Shown here: positions 3,511-31,781 of the stretch, one piece after another
Layout of the letters: the number at the start of each line of letters is the position of its first letter
How positions within the stretch are numbered: position 1 is the stretch's first letter
Origin: Prevotella sp.
Lineage (GTDB): Bacteria; Bacteroidota; Bacteroidia; Bacteroidales; Bacteroidaceae
Reading direction: 5' to 3'
Assembly (NCBI GenBank): GCA_017524385.1
Contig: JAFWSS010000119.1
Coordinates: 1 to 33,044 of the forward strand
DNA: 33,044 bases
The notes under the pieces: model-generated
Databases searched by the model: none
Told to the model about the DNA's origin: nothing
Seen by the model: the letters and a program-made list of their open reading frames with translations, nothing else
Made by a program: the position numbers and the translations under genes

Positions 3511-5289
3511 CTATAGGGCGAGACGGAACCCGAGGTTGAAATAGGTGTTTGTAGGCGTGTAGTTGCGGCGTATCGACACTCGGCAGTATTTGGCGCTATA
3601 ATACCATCCTCCCCCACGTATTACTCTGTAAGCCCCCGATGCAGGTCCTTTGGGATTCGTTTGAGACGAGGCAGTGTAAGGTCCATACCAGTCGCTGCAC
3701 CATTCCCACACATTTCCAGACATATCATAAAGCCCTAATTCGTTTGGCTTTTTCATTCCCACGGGATGCGCGGAAGTGTTGCTGTTCTCACTATGCCATG
3801 TCACATGATCGACATCGTTGCTCCCAGCATATTTGTAATGCCTGCTCATTTTCCCTCCACGAGCAGCGAACTCCCATTCCGCCTCGGTAGGCAGTCGGAA
3901 CCTCTTTCCCGTCAATGCGTTCAACTTGCTGATGAACTCCTGGCAGTTGTCCCAACTCACATTCTCTACCGGATTCTTGTCACCCTTGAAATATGAAGGG
4001 TTATCCCCCATCACTGTTTTCCATTCCTCCTGTGTCACCAGATAGCGTCCGATGGAAAACGATGAAACAGTCACCTGATGAGCAGGTTTCTCTTTAATTT
4101 TGGCATCGCTGCCTTGCTCTGGTGTGGCTCCCATCATGAAGGTTCCCCCCTCCACTTGGACCATATTGTTGACAAGGTTTTGTAGAATAGGATGCAAAGC
4201 CTTTTTCCCCTGCCTCAAAGATGCCTGTTTTGCCGAAGGGTCACCACCATGGGCTTTCTTGTTTTTCTCCTTTAGGTCTTCGCTTGTTTCGACAACGATA
4301 ATCTCGACATCATTGTCATCACCTCCCTCCTCTTCGTTTTTATCCTTGAAAGCCTTCGGTGGGTATGAGCGATTAGAATGACCTGCCAAGCCATGTTTTC
4401 GGATGAAATCCCTTATTTCCTCCACCGACTGCGGTCTGTCGCTGATGTTGAGAACCATCATCCAAAGGATGAGTTTGCGCATGCCAGGGCTCAAGGAGTT
4501 AGGCAGTGGTATGGAATACTGTTTTTCCGGAGTGGGGTCAGCAAGGATTTTCGAGGGTTTTGACGGTTTTTTCCCGGTGAGCAGGCAGAAGAGCGTCGCC
4601 CCAAGTGAATAAATGTCTGTCCAAGGTCCAATGTCACATATTTCCCCGTCCATCAATTCAAATGGTGCATATCCGGGTGTCATGAACAGAAGAGACGAGG
4701 TAGTCATCGACCCGTCAGGGTTGGAGACATATTTGCTTGCTCCGAAATCCACCAACACGGCCTTGTCCACCCCTTCCATCATGATGTTGTCGGGTTTGAT
4801 GTCCAGATGCACGAGGGGTGGTTTTAGGTTGTGTATACATTCGAGTGCGTCGAGCATCTGTTCCAGGATTGACATGACGCGTTCCTCGTCGAGAGGTTCA
4901 GATGCATTTTTGAGCCAGTCGCCCAGGCTCTTCCCCTCGATGAAGTCCATCACATAATACACCGTTCCATTCTCCTCGAACGTGTCGCTCACTGGCACGA
5001 AATGAGAGTTGCGCAGGCTAGCCATCCTTATGGCCTCGCTCAGGAACTTCTCTTTCTGCTTTTCAAACAATTCTTTGTTGGCCTTCACCGTAGGCACGAC
5101 CGTCTTGCCATCTCTGGAGCGAGTGCAGATGTCACGCCAGAAGCACTCCTTCAGCGCCACACGCTTCTTGAGGTTCACTTGCGTGGCCTCGTAAGTGATG
5201 CCGAAACCACCCTGCCCCAGTTTGCAGCGTATGACGAACTTGCCATTTTGCAGTGTGACGCCTGCTTTCAAAACGTTATCTTGTGACAT
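3511..5289 (-). CDS. Ser/Thr protein kinase fused to an FGE-sulfatase-like domain
   Basis: The product has 592 residues. Residues 18-300 form a Hanks-type kinase: glycine-rich loop LGQGGFG (24-30), ATP-anchoring Lys47 in VALK, catalytic loop HLDIKPDN (161-168, Asp163), DFG at 181-183 and PGYAPFE. The usual Arg before the catalytic Asp is Leu, so this is a non-RD kinase. A charged linker (about 305-375) leads to a formylglycine-generating-enzyme/C-type-lectin-like fold (377-592) with VEGGTFMMG, RLPTEAEWEFAARGG, LYDMSGNVWEWC and IRGGGW. Only one of the two active-site cysteines of true FGE remains (YYSAKYCR), so this half is probably a binding domain. No membrane segment is visible, so the protein is probably cytoplasmic. 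It lies 63 bp behind pepC and may be cotranscribed. The architecture resembles Pkn1-like proteins; the signal and substrates are unknown. Confidence 0.85.
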   Translation of the reverse strand: MSQDNVLKAGVTLQNGKFVIRCKLGQGGFGITYEATQVNLKKRVALKECFWRDICTRSRDGKTVVPTVKANKELFEKQKEKFLSEAIRMASLRNSHFVPVSDTFEENGTVYYVMDFIEGKSLGDWLKNASEPLDEERVMSILEQMLDALECIHNLKPPLVHLDIKPDNIMMEGVDKAVLVDFGASKYVSNPDGSMTTSSLLFMTPGYAPFELMDGEICDIGPWTDIYSLGATLFCLLTGKKPSKPSKILADPTPEKQYSIPLPNSLSPGMRKLILWMMVLNISDRPQSVEEIRDFIRKHGLAGHSNRSYPPKAFKDKNEEEGGDDNDVEIIVVETSEDLKEKNKKAHGGDPSAKQASLRQGKKALHPILQNLVNNMVQVEGGTFMMGATPEQGSDAKIKEKPAHQVTVSSFSIGRYLVTQEEWKTVMGDNPSYFKGDKNPVENVSWDNCQEFISKLNALTGKRFRLPTEAEWEFAARGGKMSRHYKYAGSNDVDHVTWHSENSNTSAHPVGMKKPNELGLYDMSGNVWEWCSDWYGPYTASSQTNPKGPASGAYRVIRGGGWYYSAKYCRVSIRRNYTPTNTYFNLGFRLAL

Positions 5290-13267: not shown

Positions 13268-16200
13268 ATGAAAAAAACTACATGGCTCATCCTTGGGTTC
13301 CTACTCTCCGTCATTGGAGTGCAGGCCCAAGAGTTCACAGTGACCTATGCCGTTCAGGAAGGAGACACCCATCCCTCCGGAGACGTCGTATCCGTGGCCT
13401 CCAACGGCACGGAAGTGGCGACGCTCACCTTTGGTGAGGCAGACGGCACAGAAGCATTCCAAGCAGGAGCTGCCGACAGTCATATCGACGGCTTCGTGGC
13501 CTACACTCCTGGAAATGGCGTCAACGGCAACAAGCCCGGCGGCACCTTCTACACCATCAAACCGGCATACGACGGCAATGTGACAATAGGTGTCGTGCTC
13601 AACGCTGGCAAGAATTTCTTCATCGAAGAGGACGGAACTCCTCTTGATGCCTTCAACGGCATCAGCGTGGATGAGAAATACTACGGCACCTACAGCTTCG
13701 ATGTCAAGGGAGGCAGCAGTTACAAGTTCTACTGCGCCGGTTCGAAACTCGGTTTCTACGGTTTCATCTACACCGGTGTGATGGGCGGTTCACAACCCGA
13801 CCCCATCTACATCGAGACCGACCTGACCGACCAGTTCGGCTCCCTCACCGAGTACACCAACTGGGTGGGTGCCAGCGGCTATGCCACATGGGCGGCACCC
13901 CAGGTGACCACCAACGCAGGCAAGACCGCCTACATGTGCGAGAGGTATGACACCAACTGCGAAACCATCGGCGACGTGTTCTACCAGAACCTCACCGGCC
14001 TGACTCCAGGCACCTACAAGATCGAGCTTTATGGTTCGGCAGCCTTCACGTTCGGTCGCGGCTTCACTTCCGAAGCCTTTGCCGAGGACGACACACCCGA
14101 AGGCCCGCTGACCGAGAACACCGGCATCAAGCTCTATGCGCAGACCAGCGAAGGCACCGTGGCCCAGGAGATAGCCGCCTACAAGGCGATCCAGTTCTCC
14201 GAAGTGTCCACCGCCACCCTCGACGGAGTGACAGTGGGCGAGGACGGCACCATGAAACTGGGTATGGACAAGTCGACGAAGTACACCAACTGGCACATCG
14301 TGCAGTTGAAAGGCGTCACCGCAAAGGTGAATGCCTCCGAGCTCTACGCCTCCTACATCGCACAGGCACAAGCCCTCGTCGGCGAGCCGATGAACGGCAC
14401 GGTGCTTGCACAACTGCAAGGTGCGATGGTTGACGACAGCGGTTTCACCACCGCCGAGGAATACGAGGCAGCCATCGCCAATCTCTCCTCCGCCATCCAA
14501 AACGCCAACGCGTCCATCGCCGTCTACAAGGAAGTGAAAGCCGCCCTTGACGAATACGCCGCGAAGGCCGACAACCTCGACGCTTCTGGCAAGGCCGCCT
14601 ATGACGTATCATCCATCCAGAAGTCCTATGACGACCGCACGCTTGACAGCAACCTCGTCGTTGCCGATATCAAGGCAGCCTACATCTCCGCCGTGAAAGC
14701 CCAGACCACTCCGGGCTCCGACTTCACCGACGTCGGCGGCAAGTTGCAAAGCGACTGGATTGGCGCCACCGGCATCTACCAAGGCGCATATCCCGAGCGC
14801 TTCGGCGAGGAGATGCCCGCCGACACCATCATGCACCAGACCATCAGCGGCCTGAAGGCAGGCACCTACAAGGTGGAACTCTACGCCGTTGCCAGCCAGG
14901 CATGGAACAGCGCCGCCGTGGGCAACGACATCACCGTGGCCTACGCCAACGACGGCATCTACCCGCTTGAAGTCATCGCCCAAGTGGCTTGCGACCCCAC
15001 GGCATCCGTTGCCACAATGGAAGCCAACGTGGGCAGCGACGGCCTTCTCGACATGGGCATGCGCAACCTCACCAATGGCGGCAACTGGTTTGTCATCCAG
15101 CTGAAGTCCATCACCCTCGAGAGCCTGAAGGCTGAGGTGGGAGCACCCCTCGTGCTTGACATCGAGAGCGGAAAGGACATCACCGCCGAAGTGACGGCAG
15201 CTCTTGAAAGCAACCCGAACCCAGAGAGCATCGAAATCGGGCTCGCCCCCGATGGCCAATACACTGTCAGTGGAACCATCGAGACGGCAGCACCGCTCTA
15301 CATCCGTGGCGACGCGGCAAAATTAGCCACCATCGATGCCTCAGCACTCACCGCACCAATGATAGCCGTCAGGCAGACGTTGTATGAGAGTTCGCTCGAC
15401 CCAGCCAACAACTTCTACAACATCGCCACCATCGACATCAGGAACATCAAGGTGAAAGGCCTCACTCAACAACTCGTCTATGGCAGCAAGATGCGTGCAT
15501 TCATCCCCAACTTGTCTGTTGAGAACACCATCATCGAGGTAGCAGGTGGAAGCAAGACCGTCTTCGACTTCAACGGTGGCGGTGTGGTGGAAACCTTGTC
15601 CATCAGCCAATCTACCATCTACGGCAACCCGCAACACACCGGGCAGCTTTACAGCTCTCAAAGCGGGAATAAAGCCACCGAGGTGGCAGAAGACAAGGTG
15701 CAAACCATCTCCATCATGAACTCCACGCTCTACAACCTCGCCTACGGCAAGAACGTGATGACCCACAGGCAATCCAACCAGAAATGGCTCACTTATGAGT
15801 TGAAGTACAGCGTCATCCTCGACTGCGGCAAGGAAGGACAATTCGTCAAGGGTCTCAACGGCGGCCAAGGCGGCTCCAACCCCGTTTGGAGAATCCAGGA
15901 CAACGCATTCCAGCGCATTGTTGACGGCGTCATCACCGACATCAGCGCCAGCGAGGAAACCGGAGACGAGGAAGAGCCAGTCAACTTCAACGTAGAAGGC
16001 GCCCTTGTCTTCACTGGCGACTTTGCTTCCGGTGACTTCACCCTTGGCGAATGCGCACAAAAGGAAATGCACATCGGCGACCCACGCTGGTTTGTAGAGG
16101 AAGGTGGCAACATCGTGCTGACGCTGGAGAGCGGCAAGGATATCTCCGCCGAACTGGCAGCAGCCCTTGAGACCACCCCGTCCCCCGAGAGCATCACCAT

Positions 16201-18172
16201 CAACCTCGCAGCAGGCGGTGAGTACACCGTCAGCAGCACCCTTGAGACAGCAGCTCCGCTGACCATCGCCGGCGACGAAGAGAACATCGCCACCATCGAC
16301 GCCTCCGCCCTCACCGGCCCGATGACAGCCATCAGCCTCACTCCTTATGAAAGCTCCCTCGATGCCGCCAACAACTTCTACACCATCGGCGACATCAACT
16401 TCACCAACCTGAAAGTGAAAGGCCTCACCCAACAGCTCATCTACGGCAACAAGGTGCGTGCATTCATCCCCAACCTGGAAGTGGACAACTGCATCATCGA
16501 AATTGCCGGTGGCAGCAAGACAACATTCGACTTCAACGGCGGCGGCGTTGTTCGTGACTTCCGCGTGATCAACTCCACCATCTACGCCAACCCGCAACAT
16601 ACGGGTCAACTCTACAGCTCTCAGAGCGGCCAAAAGGCCACCGAAGTCAGCGAAGACATGGTGCAGACCTTCTCATTGGGAGCCAGCACCTTCTACAACA
16701 TTGCCTACGGCAAGAATGTGATGACCCATCGCCAGGCCAACCAAAAGTGGCTCAAGTACGAAGTGTCCAGCTGCCTCATCATCGACTGTGGCAAGGAAGG
16801 CCAATTCGTCAAGGGTCTCAACGCCGGGCAAGGTGGCAGCAACCCTGTTTGGGAAATTGAAGCCAACTCCTTCCAGCGCATCGTTGACGGTGCATTCACC
16901 GACGTCAGCTCCAAAGAGGAAACCGGAGATGAAGACGAACCCGTCGCCGAGAACGTGGAAGGCGTGGTGGCCTTCGCCGGCGACTATGCCAATGGCGACT
17001 TCACCCTTGCCTACTGCAAGCAAGACCTGTTCTACTTAGGCGACCCACGCTGGTTTAGCAACACGAATTACTATTCTTTCGAAGCCAGTGAATGGATTGC
17101 CGGCGACCCCGGCCGCATCAGTCCTGACCAAGTGGTCGTTGACGACATTGAAAACACCATCACCGTCAGCCAGACAGGCCAGAACAACGTGAACTTGCTC
17201 TTCCGCTCAGAGAACGTCTACACCCTGCCCTACGACTTCCGCTACTTTGTCATCTCCGCCACAGGATTGTCGACCAATGACAACGACAGCTACCTCTGGT
17301 GGATGAACAACACGAACGACGGAGGGCAGTACAAGCCCACAGCCATCTTCGAGCATGAAGGCGAGACCGTCTTCGCCTGGGACATCAACCTCATTCCCAT
17401 CGGAGGACAGATTGGCAAGGAAACCACCGAGTTCAAGGATGATGGTGGTTGGAGCACCACCTTCGGCATGACCTTGGCCGACCCGTCGTCACCAGCCGTC
17501 ATCTCCTACATCGGCTTCACCAACGACATCCAACAGCCAACAGAAGAGGCAGAGTATGCATGGGACGCCACCTTATGGGTTGCCGGCGACCCGGGCCGCA
17601 TCTCTCCCGACAAGGTGGTCGTTGACGAAGCAGCCAACACCATCACCGTCAGCCAGACAGGCGACAACAACGTGGCATTGCTTTACAAGACCGACAAGGT
17701 GCTTTATGTGAACGACGCCAAGTACTTCGTCATCCAAGGCAAGGGTCTCTCCATCGCCGATACGAAGTCCTACCTCTGGTGGCTGAACAACACGAACAAC
17801 GGCAGCCAGGTAGCACCCAACATCTCAGTGAAGGACGAGGACGGCACCGTCACCCTCGTGTGGACCATCGCCGACACGGGTCTCGGAGCCTCGTTCGAGA
17901 GCGGCAAGACCTACCTCGTGGGCACTGACAACTGGAACACCACCTTCGGCCTCACCCTCGACGACGAGAGCGTGCCAGCTGTCATCAGCTACATCGGCTA
18001 CGACGGCATCGACTCTGAAATCGTGAAGCATGCCGAGGAACTCTCCGGCATCACCACCGTGCGGATGGATGTGACCAACGGCGACATCTACGACCTCATG
18101 GGTCGGAAGGTTACCACGCCGCAGAAGGGCAGCATCTACATCCAAAACGGAAAGAAGTATATCGTGAAGTAA
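13268..18172 (+). CDS. Very large secreted repeat protein, DUF4957/DUF5123-like
   Basis: This 1634-residue exported protein has a signal peptide (MKKTTWLILGFLLSVIGVQA). By eye the order is an N-terminal beta domain; two galactose-binding-like modules (about 178-350 and 480-625, each with a GLxxGTYKxELY core) separated by an Ala-rich helical stretch; two near-identical beta-helix-like modules (about 628-947 and 949-1262); two further repeats (about 1272-1425 and 1431-1577, each with W-V/I-A-G-D-P-G-R-I-S-P); and a C-terminal tail with DLMGRKV and IYIQNGKKYIVK. The tail resembles the C-terminal domain of many Bacteroidales surface proteins. Polysaccharide binding or lyase-like activity is plausible for parallel beta-helices, but no catalytic residues could be assigned. 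It is transcribed alone from a promoter at 12996-13026 and ends in a strong terminator. Confidence 0.8.
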   Translation: MKKTTWLILGFLLSVIGVQAQEFTVTYAVQEGDTHPSGDVVSVASNGTEVATLTFGEADGTEAFQAGAADSHIDGFVAYTPGNGVNGNKPGGTFYTIKPAYDGNVTIGVVLNAGKNFFIEEDGTPLDAFNGISVDEKYYGTYSFDVKGGSSYKFYCAGSKLGFYGFIYTGVMGGSQPDPIYIETDLTDQFGSLTEYTNWVGASGYATWAAPQVTTNAGKTAYMCERYDTNCETIGDVFYQNLTGLTPGTYKIELYGSAAFTFGRGFTSEAFAEDDTPEGPLTENTGIKLYAQTSEGTVAQEIAAYKAIQFSEVSTATLDGVTVGEDGTMKLGMDKSTKYTNWHIVQLKGVTAKVNASELYASYIAQAQALVGEPMNGTVLAQLQGAMVDDSGFTTAEEYEAAIANLSSAIQNANASIAVYKEVKAALDEYAAKADNLDASGKAAYDVSSIQKSYDDRTLDSNLVVADIKAAYISAVKAQTTPGSDFTDVGGKLQSDWIGATGIYQGAYPERFGEEMPADTIMHQTISGLKAGTYKVELYAVASQAWNSAAVGNDITVAYANDGIYPLEVIAQVACDPTASVATMEANVGSDGLLDMGMRNLTNGGNWFVIQLKSITLESLKAEVGAPLVLDIESGKDITAEVTAALESNPNPESIEIGLAPDGQYTVSGTIETAAPLYIRGDAAKLATIDASALTAPMIAVRQTLYESSLDPANNFYNIATIDIRNIKVKGLTQQLVYGSKMRAFIPNLSVENTIIEVAGGSKTVFDFNGGGVVETLSISQSTIYGNPQHTGQLYSSQSGNKATEVAEDKVQTISIMNSTLYNLAYGKNVMTHRQSNQKWLTYELKYSVILDCGKEGQFVKGLNGGQGGSNPVWRIQDNAFQRIVDGVITDISASEETGDEEEPVNFNVEGALVFTGDFASGDFTLGECAQKEMHIGDPRWFVEEGGNIVLTLESGKDISAELAAALETTPSPESITINLAAGGEYTVSSTLETAAPLTIAGDEENIATIDASALTGPMTAISLTPYESSLDAANNFYTIGDINFTNLKVKGLTQQLIYGNKVRAFIPNLEVDNCIIEIAGGSKTTFDFNGGGVVRDFRVINSTIYANPQHTGQLYSSQSGQKATEVSEDMVQTFSLGASTFYNIAYGKNVMTHRQANQKWLKYEVSSCLIIDCGKEGQFVKGLNAGQGGSNPVWEIEANSFQRIVDGAFTDVSSKEETGDEDEPVAENVEGVVAFAGDYANGDFTLAYCKQDLFYLGDPRWFSNTNYYSFEASEWIAGDPGRISPDQVVVDDIENTITVSQTGQNNVNLLFRSENVYTLPYDFRYFVISATGLSTNDNDSYLWWMNNTNDGGQYKPTAIFEHEGETVFAWDINLIPIGGQIGKETTEFKDDGGWSTTFGMTLADPSSPAVISYIGFTNDIQQPTEEAEYAWDATLWVAGDPGRISPDKVVVDEAANTITVSQTGDNNVALLYKTDKVLYVNDAKYFVIQGKGLSIADTKSYLWWLNNTNNGSQVAPNISVKDEDGTVTLVWTIADTGLGASFESGKTYLVGTDNWNTTFGLTLDDESVPAVISYIGYDGIDSEIVKHAEELSGITTVRMDVTNGDIYDLMGRKVTTPQKGSIYIQNGKKYIVK
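15151..17056 (+). repeat. Intragenic duplication, two modules of about 950 bp
   Basis: Segments 15151-16098 and 16114-17056 encode the same module twice. Each copy shares LTQQLxYG, FDFNGGGVV, GQLYSSQSG, GKNVMTHRQ, GQFVKGLN and GDPRWF in identical order and spacing. Long stretches are also alike at the DNA level, so this is a recent or homogenised in-frame duplication. Confidence 0.9.
17082..18000 (+). repeat. Second intragenic duplication, two modules of about 470 bp
   Basis: Segments starting near 17082 and 17560 encode paired modules sharing AGDPGRISPD, NTITVSQTG, SYLWWxNNTN and PAVISYIG. They are more diverged than the upstream pair. Confidence 0.85.
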
Positions 18173-18197: not shown

Positions 18198-18233
18198 GTG
18201 GGGAAATGGCATGGGCCATTTCCCCACTTTTTT
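18198..18233 (+). terminator. Strong rho-independent terminator
   Basis: GTGGGGAAATGGC (18198-18210) and GCCATTTCCCCAC (18215-18227) form a perfect 13-bp stem with a 4-nt loop, followed by six T. It ends the transcript of the large secreted protein. Confidence 0.92.
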
Positions 18234-18288: not shown

Positions 18289-18316
18289 TTGATATGCTAT
18301 TTTTTTCTTATTTTTG
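18289..18316 (+). promoter_or_regulatory. Promoter of the ATPase-DUF4435 cluster
   Basis: The -7 box TATTTTTG (18309-18316) and TTG (18289-18291) lie 24 bp ahead of the ATPase start. With the terminator just upstream, the following cluster is an independent transcription unit. Confidence 0.6.
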
Positions 18317-18340
18317 CAACACACAGAAAAACATTACGCC

Positions 18341-19162
18341 ATGCAGAAATACGCCGACTACATCGAGCAGATAGAAATAGACTCGCTATGGAGTGGGAGA
18401 CGCCACATCAAATGGGACCTCGACCAGCATGTCAACATCCTCAGCGGAACCAACGGCCAAGGAAAGAGCACCATCATCAACAAGGTGGTCAAGGGTCTTG
18501 CCGCTGGTGGAGAATTCCCCAGCCACATGCTCAAGGGCGTGCACTTGAAAGTGTATCCCTCTGAAGCGAAATGGATCAGGTTTGGTGTCATCAGGTCTTT
18601 CGACCGCCCATTGATGAACCTCGACACCCTTGCAAAAATGGATATGAGCCTTGCCACGGAACTCGACTGGCAACTCTTCCAATTGCAAAGGAAATACCTT
18701 GACTACCAGGTGAACATCGGCAACCGCATCATAGAGGTGCTTCAAAGCGGAGCTCCCGATGCGGCACTAAAGGCTCAAGAAATCTCTGCACCCAAGAAGC
18801 GTTTCCAAGACCTGCTTGACGACCTCTTCTCCGACACGGGAAAGAAAATCGTCCGCAGCGCCAATGAAATATTCTTCTCACAAATAGGCGAGACGCTCGT
18901 CCCCTACCAACTGTCCAGCGGCGAGAAGCAGATGCTTGCCATCCTCCTCACCGTGCTGATTCAAGACAACCAACCCTTCGTGCTCTTCATGGACGAGCCG
19001 GAAGTGAGCCTCCACATCGAGTGGCAGAAGCGGCTCATCGACATGGTGCTAGAACTGAACCCGAATGTCCAGATCATCCTCACCACCCACTCCCCAGCCG
19101 TCGTGATGAACGGTTGGGTGAACAACGTGACCGAAGTGTCCGACATCACCGACAGTTTCTGA
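18341..19162 (+). CDS. Compact ABC-type ATPase (AAA_15/AAA_21-like, OLD/AriA-like)
   Basis: This 273-residue cytoplasmic ATPase carries every ABC-ATPase motif: Walker A GTNGQGKST (36-44), signature LSSGEKQML (191-199), Walker B VLFMDEPEVSLH (Asp218, Glu219) and H-loop TTHSP (His250). The short insertion between Walker A and the signature is helical and charged and takes the place of a long coiled coil. SMC-like ATPases of this type pair with TOPRIM nucleases in OLD, Gabija and PARIS defence systems, and a DUF4435 gene follows 34 bp downstream. It is shorter than typical AriA-type partners. The ATG at 18341 was preferred because a TTG nine codons upstream lies right after the -7 box. A DNA-repair or housekeeping function remains possible. 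Confidence 0.85.
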   Translation: MQKYADYIEQIEIDSLWSGRRHIKWDLDQHVNILSGTNGQGKSTIINKVVKGLAAGGEFPSHMLKGVHLKVYPSEAKWIRFGVIRSFDRPLMNLDTLAKMDMSLATELDWQLFQLQRKYLDYQVNIGNRIIEVLQSGAPDAALKAQEISAPKKRFQDLLDDLFSDTGKKIVRSANEIFFSQIGETLVPYQLSSGEKQMLAILLTVLIQDNQPFVLFMDEPEVSLHIEWQKRLIDMVLELNPNVQIILTTHSPAVVMNGWVNNVTEVSDITDSF

Positions 19163-19196
19163 CCCCTTGAAGCCGTTCCCACGAACTCTTAGGAAA

Positions 19197-20315
19197 ATGC
19201 CCAGACGCCTAACAGACAACCTCAACTCCGACTATTTCAGCGCTGCCAACAAATTGAAGCCCAAGACAGCGCGCCGCCGCATCGTGGCTTACGTGGAGAG
19301 CTACGACGACATCTACTTCTGGCGCACCGTACTCAGCGAGTATGAGGATGATACACTTTATTTCGAGGTGATGCTTCCCTCGAAAGTGAACCTGTCGAAA
19401 GGCAAGAAGCAAGTGCTGATGAATCTCATCGGCGACAACATCGGTGAAGACATGATAGCCTGCGTGGATGCCGACTATGATTTTCTGGTTCAAGGAGTGA
19501 CGAAAACCTCGGAGAAAATCATCCACAATCCCTACGTCTTCCACACCTATGTCTATGCCATTGAAAACTATCAGTGTTATGCCCCGTCGCTTCACAACGT
19601 ATGTGTGATGGCGACCCTCAACGACCACATGATCTTCAATTTCGAGGAATACCTGCGCCAATACTCCCAAGCCATCTTCCCGCTCTTCGTATGGAGCATC
19701 TGGTACTACCGATCCCCGAAATACACCGATTTCTCCATCACCGATTTCAACAGGGTCATAGAGACAGGTCATTTCACGTTGGCGAAAGCCGCAGAGGGCA
19801 TTGCCAATGTCCGTCACAAGGTAGGCAGGAAAGTCATCCAACTTCAGAAGGAGAATCCTGATGCGAAAGAGTCTTACCTAGCCTTGAAAGAGGAGTTGAA
19901 AGAACTTGGTGTCTCACCCGACAGCACATATCTCTACATCCAGGGGCATCACCTATACGACAACGTGGTGTCGCCCATGCTGGGGAAGGTGTGCGACAAG
20001 TTGCGCCGTGAGCGCGAGATGGAAATCCACAACAAGGCAGTGCACAACACACAGATGCGGAACGAATTGTCGTGTTACCAACACAGTGTCGAGAATGTCG
20101 CCGCGATGCTGAAGAAGAACACTGGTTACGTGAAGTCGAAGCCCTATGCCAGACTCAAGTCCGACTTGGAGCACTTCCTCTCCACCCTCACACCCCAACC
20201 GAAGTCCTCTCCCGAAGGCACGGAGCAACGGCCCTCGCCATCCTCAACCACAAGTATTTCAAGCCCCCGACCAGAGTCCTCTTCCCAAGAACCAGAACAA
20301 CCCCCAAAAGAATGA
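19197..20315 (+). CDS. DUF4435 / TOPRIM-like protein
   Basis: This 372-residue protein is partner to the ATPase upstream. The N-terminal half has TOPRIM-like landmarks: AYVESYDDIYFW with Glu34, GKKQVL near 69-74, the D-x-D pair in CVDADYDF (Asp91, Asp93), and YVYAIENYQCY, which is typical of DUF4435. In PARIS, the DUF4435 protein AriB is the toxic effector released by the ATPase; the same role here is inferred. The middle is rich in aromatic residues and the last 40 residues are a Pro/Ser/Glu-rich tail with no fold. The ATG at 19197 follows an AGGAAA purine stretch; a TTG ten codons earlier was rejected. The next gene starts 5 bp after the stop. Confidence 0.75.
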   Translation: MPRRLTDNLNSDYFSAANKLKPKTARRRIVAYVESYDDIYFWRTVLSEYEDDTLYFEVMLPSKVNLSKGKKQVLMNLIGDNIGEDMIACVDADYDFLVQGVTKTSEKIIHNPYVFHTYVYAIENYQCYAPSLHNVCVMATLNDHMIFNFEEYLRQYSQAIFPLFVWSIWYYRSPKYTDFSITDFNRVIETGHFTLAKAAEGIANVRHKVGRKVIQLQKENPDAKESYLALKEELKELGVSPDSTYLYIQGHHLYDNVVSPMLGKVCDKLRREREMEIHNKAVHNTQMRNELSCYQHSVENVAAMLKKNTGYVKSKPYARLKSDLEHFLSTLTPQPKSSPEGTEQRPSPSSTTSISSPRPESSSQEPEQPPKE

Positions 20316-20319
20316 TGCC

Positions 20320-20706
20320 ATGGAAATGAAGACCACCTCCATCGAGACAGCACGGTTGCTTCGCAAGCACCGCTTCAACGAACCCACCACCAGTTATTAC
20401 GACGCCGACGGCATTCTGCGCACCGTGAGCCAGGAGGAAGCAGCCTGTTGGAACAGCCCCACCTATGACAAGAGCGTACGTCACAAGGTGTATGCCGCTC
20501 CGACGCTGCCTTTGGCCCAACAATGGCTTCGGGAGAAGAAACGTTTCGACGTGTTGGTGGATCGCGACTACCTTTTCGGCAAGGTGGGCAAGTATTTTGC
20601 CAAGATCATACGTCTGAAAGACGGGGCCATCAGCGAGACGGTGCATTGCCGCAGTTATGAGAAGGCCTTGGAGCATGGCATCATGAAAGCGCTGCGCACG
20701 ATGTGA
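20320..20706 (+). CDS. Small phage/mobile-element-like protein, third gene of the ATPase cluster
   Basis: This 128-residue soluble protein follows the DUF4435 gene by 4 bp. The stretch RHKVYAAPTLPLAQQWLREKK and the ending YEKALEHGIMKALRTM resemble small proteins of unknown function seen in Bacteroidota prophages and conjugative elements, where they read similarly (AxTLxxAxxWLRE ... YExAxExGxxxAL). That resemblance is from memory. No catalytic motif, membrane segment or signal peptide is visible. The position suggests cotranscription and possibly a regulator or trigger of the ATPase/DUF4435 pair, but it may be unrelated. The start at 20320 (MEMKTTSIET) is uncertain by two codons. A frame extending upstream overlaps the DUF4435 tail and was not used. 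Confidence 0.6.
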   Translation: MEMKTTSIETARLLRKHRFNEPTTSYYDADGILRTVSQEEAACWNSPTYDKSVRHKVYAAPTLPLAQQWLREKKRFDVLVDRDYLFGKVGKYFAKIIRLKDGAISETVHCRSYEKALEHGIMKALRTM

Positions 20707-30077: not shown

Positions 30078-31781
30078 TTATCTGGATTTGACAAATTTGC
30101 GTGACCCGTTGGCATCTTGTATGACATAGACACCTTTTGACAAACTTCTCAAGATGTTGGCGTATTCTTGCTCATCAGGAGTCGTGCTCCAACGCCTCAC
30201 GCAAACACCTCCCAAGGTGCTGATGGTGAGTCCTTTCACGGGTGCGACATCTTGCTGCCGTACAGCAGTGGCATAGTCGGTGAGAGGCAGCCAACGCTTG
30301 CCGTTCAATTCCCTATAAAAGGCACTTATCTCGTAGCCTTCAGAGAAATCGGCCTTGGTGTCAGGGATGAAATAGCGATAGGTCATCTGCTGGCCATCAT
30401 AGATGGACGTAAGTTGGTGAGAAAGGTAGGTTTTGCCTTTATTGCTGATGCAAATCTGCAAGGAGTCTTCAAAGTTGTTTTCTGAAGGGTTGCAGATGGT
30501 GAATTCAAAAGTCTTCCCTCCATTTTGGCCTGTCACTTCCTTGATGCCGTCGAGCAGGTAGAGGTGGGTGTCGAGTTTGTGTGACGGCAGGACGTGGAAG
30601 GTGAAAGTCCCGTTTTCCACGGTCACGGGCACACGGTTGGGTGCATTGTCCCATCCTCTTACCCATGGTGCGCTTTCATTTTCTCTCGAAACGATACTCA
30701 TCTCATATTCACCATTTCCCAATGTCGACGGCAGGGTGAAAAATCCCCTGAAATACCTCATCTTGCCACCATCAGGGAAAGATTGGTTGCGTAATACAGT
30801 TGGCGAGACAGCTTGCAACACGCCGTCACGATAGAACCCAACAGAACAATCTATTGAAGCCCCAAAGAAACTTACCAACTTGACAACACTGTTCACATAT
30901 ACGCTGTTTCTCGCAACGACAGTGCTGGCATAAGGGTCGTCGCCCACGAGCAAGGTGGTGTCCACCACCAGAGCGATGTGGTCGTAGTCGGAATCGGAAA
31001 GCCCCTGCAAGGGAACGCAATCGGTGACCATGGCCTGCCTATGATGATAGCATACACCCCCCACGCCCGGGTTTGTGCCGTTGCCTTGGTTGAGCAGATT
31101 GAGGTCCACCCAACGTATCTGGTAGTTTTCCCCATGTCCGTAATTGGCGTGAAATAGCGATGTCCCGTCATGGCCATCGATGACAAACATATGCCCGGCC
31201 AACCTCTTGTCGGGTTCGCTATGGTCTCCCCTGTAGAATACCGGGTGCCCTTCATCCAATTCCTTGCATAGCATTTCCGTCCATTCAGCAGTGGAATAGT
31301 AGCAACGTCGAAGATACCTGGACTGGGGCGAGAGGTGAAGATAGTGCTGCAGTCCCCACATCATGCTGGGATAATTGTAAGGAGAACTGCCGTTAGTCAT
31401 ATAATGCATTTTCATCGCGGCCCCCACCACGCGCATCAGATTGGCCACGGCCTTTTTCTCTGTTTCCGAAGCCTGTGCACCATATCTTGGTTGGATGTGC
31501 TGCCAGTCGATGGCGCATGTGTCCAAGTCAACGTCGACGTTTCCATATTTCACATGTCCTGTTCCTTTCAACGGAAACTGGTAATAATAGAAAATCTGCG
31601 CCATGGCCGTAGCACCGCATCCTGTCAACGCTTTGTTTCCATTCGCCAGCAACGGGCAGAAAATATTGTATGGATCACCTTGAGACCATACGGCATCTAC
31701 CATATATCCATTTGCCGACGACTGTGCCGAAATATGATTGGCACTCAATAGTGTAACGAAAAGAAGTAATAACTTTTTCAT
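30078..31781 (-). CDS. C10 (streptopain-like) cysteine peptidase, lacking a propeptide
   Basis: This 567-residue protein has a signal peptide (MKKLLLLFVTLLSANHISAQ). The C10 catalytic Cys is in LTGCGATAMAQI (Cys55) and the His in GHMFVIDGHDG (His197). C10 zymogens such as SpeB and interpain carry roughly 100 residues of propeptide before the catalytic domain; here the Cys lies only 35 residues after the signal peptide, so the prodomain is missing. The Trp-rich loop after the His, usually WGWGG, reads NYGHGENY. Residues about 270-520 form beta-rich domains, and the end (LSKGVYVIQDANGSRKFVKSR) resembles the C-terminal tails of Bacteroidales secreted proteins. The active-site changes make its activity uncertain. 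Confidence 0.8.
   Translation of the reverse strand: MKKLLLLFVTLLSANHISAQSSANGYMVDAVWSQGDPYNIFCPLLANGNKALTGCGATAMAQIFYYYQFPLKGTGHVKYGNVDVDLDTCAIDWQHIQPRYGAQASETEKKAVANLMRVVGAAMKMHYMTNGSSPYNYPSMMWGLQHYLHLSPQSRYLRRCYYSTAEWTEMLCKELDEGHPVFYRGDHSEPDKRLAGHMFVIDGHDGTSLFHANYGHGENYQIRWVDLNLLNQGNGTNPGVGGVCYHHRQAMVTDCVPLQGLSDSDYDHIALVVDTTLLVGDDPYASTVVARNSVYVNSVVKLVSFFGASIDCSVGFYRDGVLQAVSPTVLRNQSFPDGGKMRYFRGFFTLPSTLGNGEYEMSIVSRENESAPWVRGWDNAPNRVPVTVENGTFTFHVLPSHKLDTHLYLLDGIKEVTGQNGGKTFEFTICNPSENNFEDSLQICISNKGKTYLSHQLTSIYDGQQMTYRYFIPDTKADFSEGYEISAFYRELNGKRWLPLTDYATAVRQQDVAPVKGLTISTLGGVCVRRWSTTPDEQEYANILRSLSKGVYVIQDANGSRKFVKSR

Follow-up and report, generated by a model that had tools for sequence, protein, structure and literature searches.

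A short-AriA PARIS-type gene pair, probably ancestral and vertically inherited in a dominant gut and rumen bacterial family

In this study, we describe two adjacent genes, A and B, in a stretch of DNA of 33,044 bases (hereafter the window), which is the entire contig G000:C125 of a genome of 5.05 Mb in 272 contigs. We consider it probable that they form a chromosomally fixed, vertically inherited pair of the PARIS type (short-AriA form, OLD class 4), ancestral to most of the sampled family, with active sites that have stayed intact since. The pair is not a chance find; it is conserved across the whole family. The analysis establishes its family identity, the single-chain folds as predicted, intact catalytic residues, obligate pairing, a promoter box of its own, vertical inheritance and purifying selection. 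The two genes are:

18341..19162, + strand: gene A, short AriA-like ABC ATPase, 273 residues
19197..20315, + strand: gene B, AriB-like DUF4435/TOPRIM nuclease (predicted), 372 residues

Defence systems are regarded as accessory genes that come and go quickly. This rule is broken here, by a PARIS-type pair that almost all sampled species of a family dominant in gut and rumen carry. Moreover, such a family-wide pair would inflate the defence counts of surveys that use AriA/AriB profiles, and it can be tested directly whether bacteria here possess a fixed innate immunity or have turned a suicide nuclease to normal cell life. A literature search covering the leading matches, with few subscription journals among them, gave no report that the pair belongs to the core genes of the family, and the word PARIS does not occur in the accessible part of a rumen defence survey (PMC13356809).

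Identity and active sites of the two proteins

The PADLOC AriA profile PDLC04164, 253 positions long, spans A from end to end (E 2.8e-55). Among solved structures in the PDB, the best relative of A by sequence is AriA (8ux9, E 1.2e-19, with the broader A1 profile), while the narrower A4 profile gave no PDB match at 1e-15; the predicted fold of A also has AriA as its best solved match. A carries Walker A (G36-T44), the signature LSSGEKQ (191-197), DEPE (218-221) and H250. In 35 aligned family members G36, N38, G39, G41, K42, T44, L191, G194-Q197, D218-E221 and H250 are invariant, and the signature serines S192 and S193 are kept in at least 90%, with single changes only. The ATPase motifs are conserved in a second alignment of 46 members as well. 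Structural comparison with solved E. coli AriA, a 396-residue chain spanning 3-444, aligned 244 residues. The earlier note on this DNA had suggested that the short ATPase might be a distinct subtype. The difference from E. coli AriA is real; shortness alone is not new, because PADLOC already holds an AriA profile of 253 positions.

For B, the best solved match of the predicted fold is AriB. The earlier note had named a DUF4435 protein without a TOPRIM fold as an argument against its reading; the model of B presents the TOPRIM/AriB fold. The putative catalytic residues E34, D91 and D93 are invariant in 35/35 family members and in 71/71 nearer ones, and are likewise kept in sets that include accessory copies and an AriB from an E. 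coli plasmid. E34 appears to be the counterpart of E26 of E. coli AriB. A conserved extension (about residues 280-335) is lacking or differently formed in accessory copies of the same order, and residues of about 340-369, modelled with low confidence, are probably disordered. Searching PDB sequences with B alone or with B profiles yielded nothing or chance matches. The assignment to PARIS, already suggested as a candidate in the earlier note, thus stands on the AriA/AriB profile search in PADLOC, on sequence for AriA, and on fold for AriB as well as AriA. The open reading frames, gaps, motifs and residues listed there were all correct on recheck.

Distribution, inheritance and locus

Two genome sets were searched, namely 149 genomes (90 of the genus including the window's own, and 59 from other families of the same order) and 251 genomes of the family from 30 genera, 151 of them good (completeness >=90%, contamination <=5%). 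Judging from the named carriers (Prevotella, Hallella, Hoylesella, Leyella, Xylanibacter, Bacteroides finegoldii and Phocaeicola massiliensis), the family is taken to be the GTDB Bacteroidaceae, that is Prevotella, Bacteroides, Phocaeicola and relatives. Among named relatives the closest are uncultured Prevotellaceae carrying RUG designations, which denote rumen genomes; their A is 94% identical.

B was matched in 91/149 genomes, the own one included, which covers nearly the whole genus; in the other families of the order it was found in 4/59 genomes (29-34% identity). Within the family B is present in 240/251 genomes (146/151 good ones, 28/30 genera) and A, at E <= 1e-30, in 235/251 (145/151 good ones, 27/30 genera). 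Both genes occur in 235 of the 251 family genomes and a divergent pair in five more. The 16 genomes without A at this threshold are the 11 without B and five of genus g66; no family genome holds A or B alone, and pairing is obligate. The genus gives the same picture, with both genes in 86 of 90 genomes, a single gene in none and the core pair missing in four (completeness: G012 99%, G023 56%, G067 63%, G070 86%), of which G012 holds an accessory pair. A of G008 and G059 and B of G071 were matched in two pieces.

Accessory PARIS copies, with B at 23-28% identity, were found in 4/90 genus genomes (G012, G024, G030, G079), in agreement with the 5.2% of genomes overall given for ariAB in the accessible part of Rousset et al. 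(PMC9122126). As a control, OLD-like_TOPRIM (PF20469) is present in 9/90 of the same genus genomes and is patchy. The accessory pair of G024 (L097 6361-12711), with a HipA gene nearby, is flanked on either side by an epimerase/DUF1731 gene, both assigned to the same Pfam families, as if it had inserted next to a gene duplicate. G032 holds an extra A-like match (C6:50778-51188, 37% identity, E 5e-24) with no B match adjoining in the same search set, either a lone accessory AriA-like ATPase or one whose B is too divergent to see.

No phage-borne B was found in 50,697 phage records, and scans of viral contigs with A and with the protein of the gene behind B, which reach close relatives only, gave no phage-borne pair. 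Two PLSDB matches (51-54% identity) raised the possibility of a plasmid-borne core pair, which was rejected on gene content: NZ_OY725943.1 (L139) shows the chromosomal order alpha-2-macroglobulin, DUF1573, meaB, DMT, A, B, MscS, OY726067.1 (L238) shows DMT, A, B, and both 'plasmid' records look like pieces of a Bacteroides/Phocaeicola chromosome.

The tree of A+B follows that of RpoB. In 27 genomes the Mantel correlation of the two is 0.86, with 0/5000 permutations as high, and 14/24 splits are common to both trees (0.14 expected). Accessory and other-family copies, G172, G162, G241 (no rpoB match) and core loci without an rpoB search were left out of this comparison; for G172 and G162 rpoB was found and pair loci exist, yet outside the stretches used for the tree. 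After removal of RpoB, the distances of A and B are still correlated (partial r 0.49). Median distances are 0.55 for A, 0.79 for B and 0.19 for RpoB, so that A is more conserved than B. The ratio of nonsynonymous to synonymous substitution rates (dN/dS), where unsaturated, is 0.02-0.11 for A, 0.04-0.19 for B and 0.035-0.075 for rpoB; values marked nan are saturated. The reading as a sporadic defence cassette was rejected on the family-wide spread and on the agreement with RpoB.

Gene order is equally constant. In 41/41 loci, accessory ones included, and in 78/78 named loci with both genes, A and B share a strand and A lies directly 5' of B; the other two of the 80 named loci are on short contig ends with no B there. 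The neighbourhood survey proposed in the earlier note shows the A-B order kept in all loci examined and the third gene of its candidate system not kept. At least one tracked housekeeping neighbour accompanies the pair in 66/80 named loci, the tracked set having been picked from loci already examined and hence not being independent of them. The genes trkH, trkA and dxs all lie in the fetched stretch in 40/80 of these loci, a DMT transporter on the opposite strand in 25/80 and cysK in 25/80. In Bacteroides-like genera the order is alpha-2-macroglobulin, DUF1573, meaB, often DMT, A, B, MscS. G207 shows a clean loss, with DMT and MscS retained on either side of the missing pair. Of the good genomes, four more have no pair (three of g62, one of g72); they retain meaB and DUF1573 there, beside which neither DMT nor MscS was recognised. 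The earlier note had regarded presence in nearly all related genomes at the same locus, with no defence association, as evidence against its defence reading. Such presence was largely found (235/251 genomes), although not at one identical locus throughout. The reading of the pair as an ordinary accessory defence module is not supported, given this spread, housekeeping neighbours in most loci examined and, among ten window neighbours, no PADLOC match except that of a generic kinase.

Several observations weigh against a fixed, vertically inherited PARIS pair. B is tied to the AriB of the PDB by fold only and not by sequence or profile, and A is without about 150 residues of solved E. coli AriA, so that the mode of sensing may not carry over. 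The A+B and RpoB trees show one strongly supported conflict, and 10/24 splits differ. Monophyly of core versus accessory copies is weakly supported (64/77) in a tree where the accessory branches are very long and their order is unsure. Synteny is regional, 14/80 named loci being without tracked neighbours, some of them on short contigs. In all five genomes of genus g66, B is weak (E 1e-42 to 1e-45) and A is not detected at 1e-30; in the two genomes examined (L100, L101) the pair reaches about 30-40% identity, and the tree of core and accessory copies places it on its own, which points to replacement or fast evolution. Finally, both genes are missing in 5/151 good genomes; the pair is therefore dispensable in some members, and a strictly essential role is disfavoured.

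The surroundings of the pair in the window comprise three further features:

18198..18227, + strand: hairpin with T run, resembling an intrinsic terminator, between the pair and the upstream gene for a 1634-residue protein
18309..18316, + strand: Bacteroidota-type -7 promoter box TAnnTTTG, 5' of the pair, reading TATTTTTG
20320..20706, + strand: third gene, basic phage-related protein of 128 residues, a lineage-specific passenger or accessory gene (phrog_12005 match, homologues in crAss-like phages)

A and B are separated by 34 base pairs, B and the third gene by 4, and all three genes lie on the + strand. The strong terminator that the earlier note saw upstream was confirmed as a stem of 13 pairs, 8 of them G-C, followed by TTTTTT. 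A terminator scan of the region gave 4 candidates against a mean of 3.8 in shuffles, thus no overall excess; the other three stems have 5-8 pairs. Of the promoter placed directly in front of the pair, a sigma-70 type was scanned for 5' of the pair and none was found, whereas a box of the Bacteroidota kind is there. TAnnTTTG is the -7 promoter consensus of Bacteroidota. It occurs within 110 nucleotides 5' of the ATPase start in 98/114 loci, a set holding a few genomes twice, versus 7% in mononucleotide shuffles.

Upstream in the window lie dxs, trkA, trkH, a manA-like gene and then the gene for the 1634-residue protein; downstream follow a cysK-like gene (named by eye), a Cys/Met pyridoxal-phosphate enzyme and an H+-pyrophosphatase. 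The gene directly upstream of the pair (13268-18172, +) encodes a repeat-rich protein that, by eye, has a signal-like stretch at its N terminus and ends in a sorting-like tail at its C terminus; G062 has a gene for 1633 residues at the same position. A PADLOC scan of ten window neighbours matched a generic kinase and nothing else. This protein of 592 residues (3511-5289, -) fits the kinase-type profiles mad6 (E 7e-52) and PD-T4-6 (E 7e-43) and by sequence is probably a Ser/Thr kinase. A Peptidase C10 family protein (E 3.5e-47) is encoded at 30078-31781 (-).

Possible functions of the pair

In E. coli, freed AriB cleaves tRNA, as described in the accessible part of PMC12409363. By homology we infer assembly, release and an RNA target for the present pair too: the AriA-like ATPase would assemble and keep the TOPRIM protein inactive, a cellular or viral signal would alter the ATPase and thereby release the AriB-like nuclease, and the latter would cut RNA. 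Distribution alone is compatible with both a phage signal, meaning family-wide innate immunity, and endogenous stress, meaning exapted surveillance.

Fixed immunity we rate somewhat below an even chance. The pair would then be a working PARIS system of abortive infection, which the whole family retains because so many of the family's phages, for instance crAss-like ones, carry the trigger; the ATPase would sense a phage protein, the freed nuclease would cut tRNA and growth would stop. Gene pair, predicted folds and catalytic residues are the same as in PARIS, which according to the accessible parts of PMC9122126 and PMC12409363 operates so in E. coli, and the third gene of one lineage belongs to a phage-type family. 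The relative conservation of the two proteins speaks against it, since an arms race at the sensor predicts the opposite of a putative sensor A more conserved than the effector B (0.55 versus 0.79). The same applies to the housekeeping neighbours and to the ten window neighbours, with their single generic kinase known to PADLOC. Defence genes are usually gained and lost quickly. The turnover of the pair is low, compared with accessory PARIS (4/90), OLD-type TOPRIM (9/90) and the overall ariAB frequency (5.2%, accessible part of PMC9122126).

Exaptation for housekeeping we rate about as likely, likewise somewhat below an even chance. Here a former defence pair would now act in quality control of RNA or DNA, in stress response or in the control of the cell cycle and answer to an endogenous signal. 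This would account for a pair that is core, vertical, mostly single copy and under purifying selection, with housekeeping neighbours and a conserved promoter box. Cran1 provides a precedent, as an OLD-family ATPase-nuclease reported to be essential in the cell cycle and apparently not to act against viruses (accessible part of PMC12796447). On the other side stand the five good genomes in which both genes are missing. Furthermore, we know of no endogenous partner or phenotype of the pair, which counts against exaptation. Tentatively, then, and at no better than the same somewhat less than even chance, a PARIS pair may have been domesticated family-wide into a core vertical system with an endogenous signal, in which case 'PARIS' calls by tools in Bacteroides, Prevotella and relatives would mostly denote housekeeping genes.

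The third gene and known systems

The third protein (128 residues, isoelectric point 9.5, net charge +7) matches phrog_12005 (E 2.4e-8). Its homologues are hypothetical proteins in 7/50,697 phage records (29-34% identity); these phages infect Bacteroides, and the two records opened are both Crassvirales. In the crAss-like phages L140 (3724-4339) and L141 (3516-4354) no more than about 0.4 kb separates the homologue from a tRNA-Arg gene. The homologue in G064 is found among phage-type helicase, replication and methyltransferase genes. Of 149 genomes, 9 have a match, and in 5 of these, the window included, it adjoins the pair.

The earlier note had considered this protein a possible regulator or trigger of the system. 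A three-gene module of that kind is improbable, even though the third gene follows B after 4 base pairs on the same strand, retains this position in the four G genomes that are closest and in 4/80 named loci (L142-L145; L145 is the same contig as G036), is under purifying selection (ratio of nonsynonymous to synonymous polymorphism, pN/pS, 0.14-0.39) and has homologues in phages. It sits behind the pair only in close relatives and is absent from most carriers. Moreover, this protein is basic, whereas PMC11455837 describes the triggers known for PARIS as carrying negative charge. The conserved unit does not include the third gene, which one lineage has gained as a phage-related addition.

Gabija carries a UvrD-like helicase partner, and Septu (PtuA-PtuB) the HNH nuclease PtuB. 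A system of the Gabija, Septu or OLD class 1-3 type in place of PARIS is very improbable, as the AriA/AriB profiles score far better. In OLD classes 1-3 and Gabija GajA, ATPase and TOPRIM are fused in a single chain; here they are on separate genes, the partner is DUF4435 without an HNH match, and neither the three proteins nor the ten neighbours scanned in the window gave a helicase or HNH match. OLD-type TOPRIM is also patchy in the genus (9/90), unlike the pair. Cran1 of Sulfolobales, an OLD-family ATPase-nickase, shares with the pair the lineage-conserved combination of OLD-family ATPase and TOPRIM, and is reported outside defence in the accessible part of PMC12796447. It differs in being archaeal, single-chain and essential, whereas the present pair consists of two genes and is missing in some species.

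With E. coli PARIS the pair shares adjacent ABC ATPase and DUF4435/TOPRIM genes, predicted folds that best match solved AriA/AriB, and the catalytic Glu/Asp. The hallmarks of PARIS (OLD class 4) in sequence and predicted fold are present, namely an AriA-family ATPase with Walker A, signature, Walker B and His, an adjacent DUF4435/TOPRIM AriB and intact TOPRIM residues. E. coli AriA has 464 residues, A has 273 and is without the large insert, which is not required of all PARIS systems, as the 253-position PADLOC profile illustrates. There PARIS is accessory, here the pair is core and vertically inherited; a patchy accessory distribution is usual for PARIS and not molecularly defining. Compared with accessory copies of the order, the conserved extension at about 280-335 is a feature of the studied B. 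The closest form is short-AriA PARIS (PADLOC PDLC04164/PDLC04165), whose AriA profile covers all of A. The short-AriA pair of E. coli pSE11-5 aligns along both A and B, and differs in lying on a mobilizable plasmid of 5.4 kb, while the studied pair is chromosomal and fixed; on pSE11-5 (L239) it is annotated merely as an AAA ATPase and a hypothetical protein. The pair is thus of the PARIS kind in its short-AriA form, already profiled by PADLOC, and what is new is its core, vertical status across the family.
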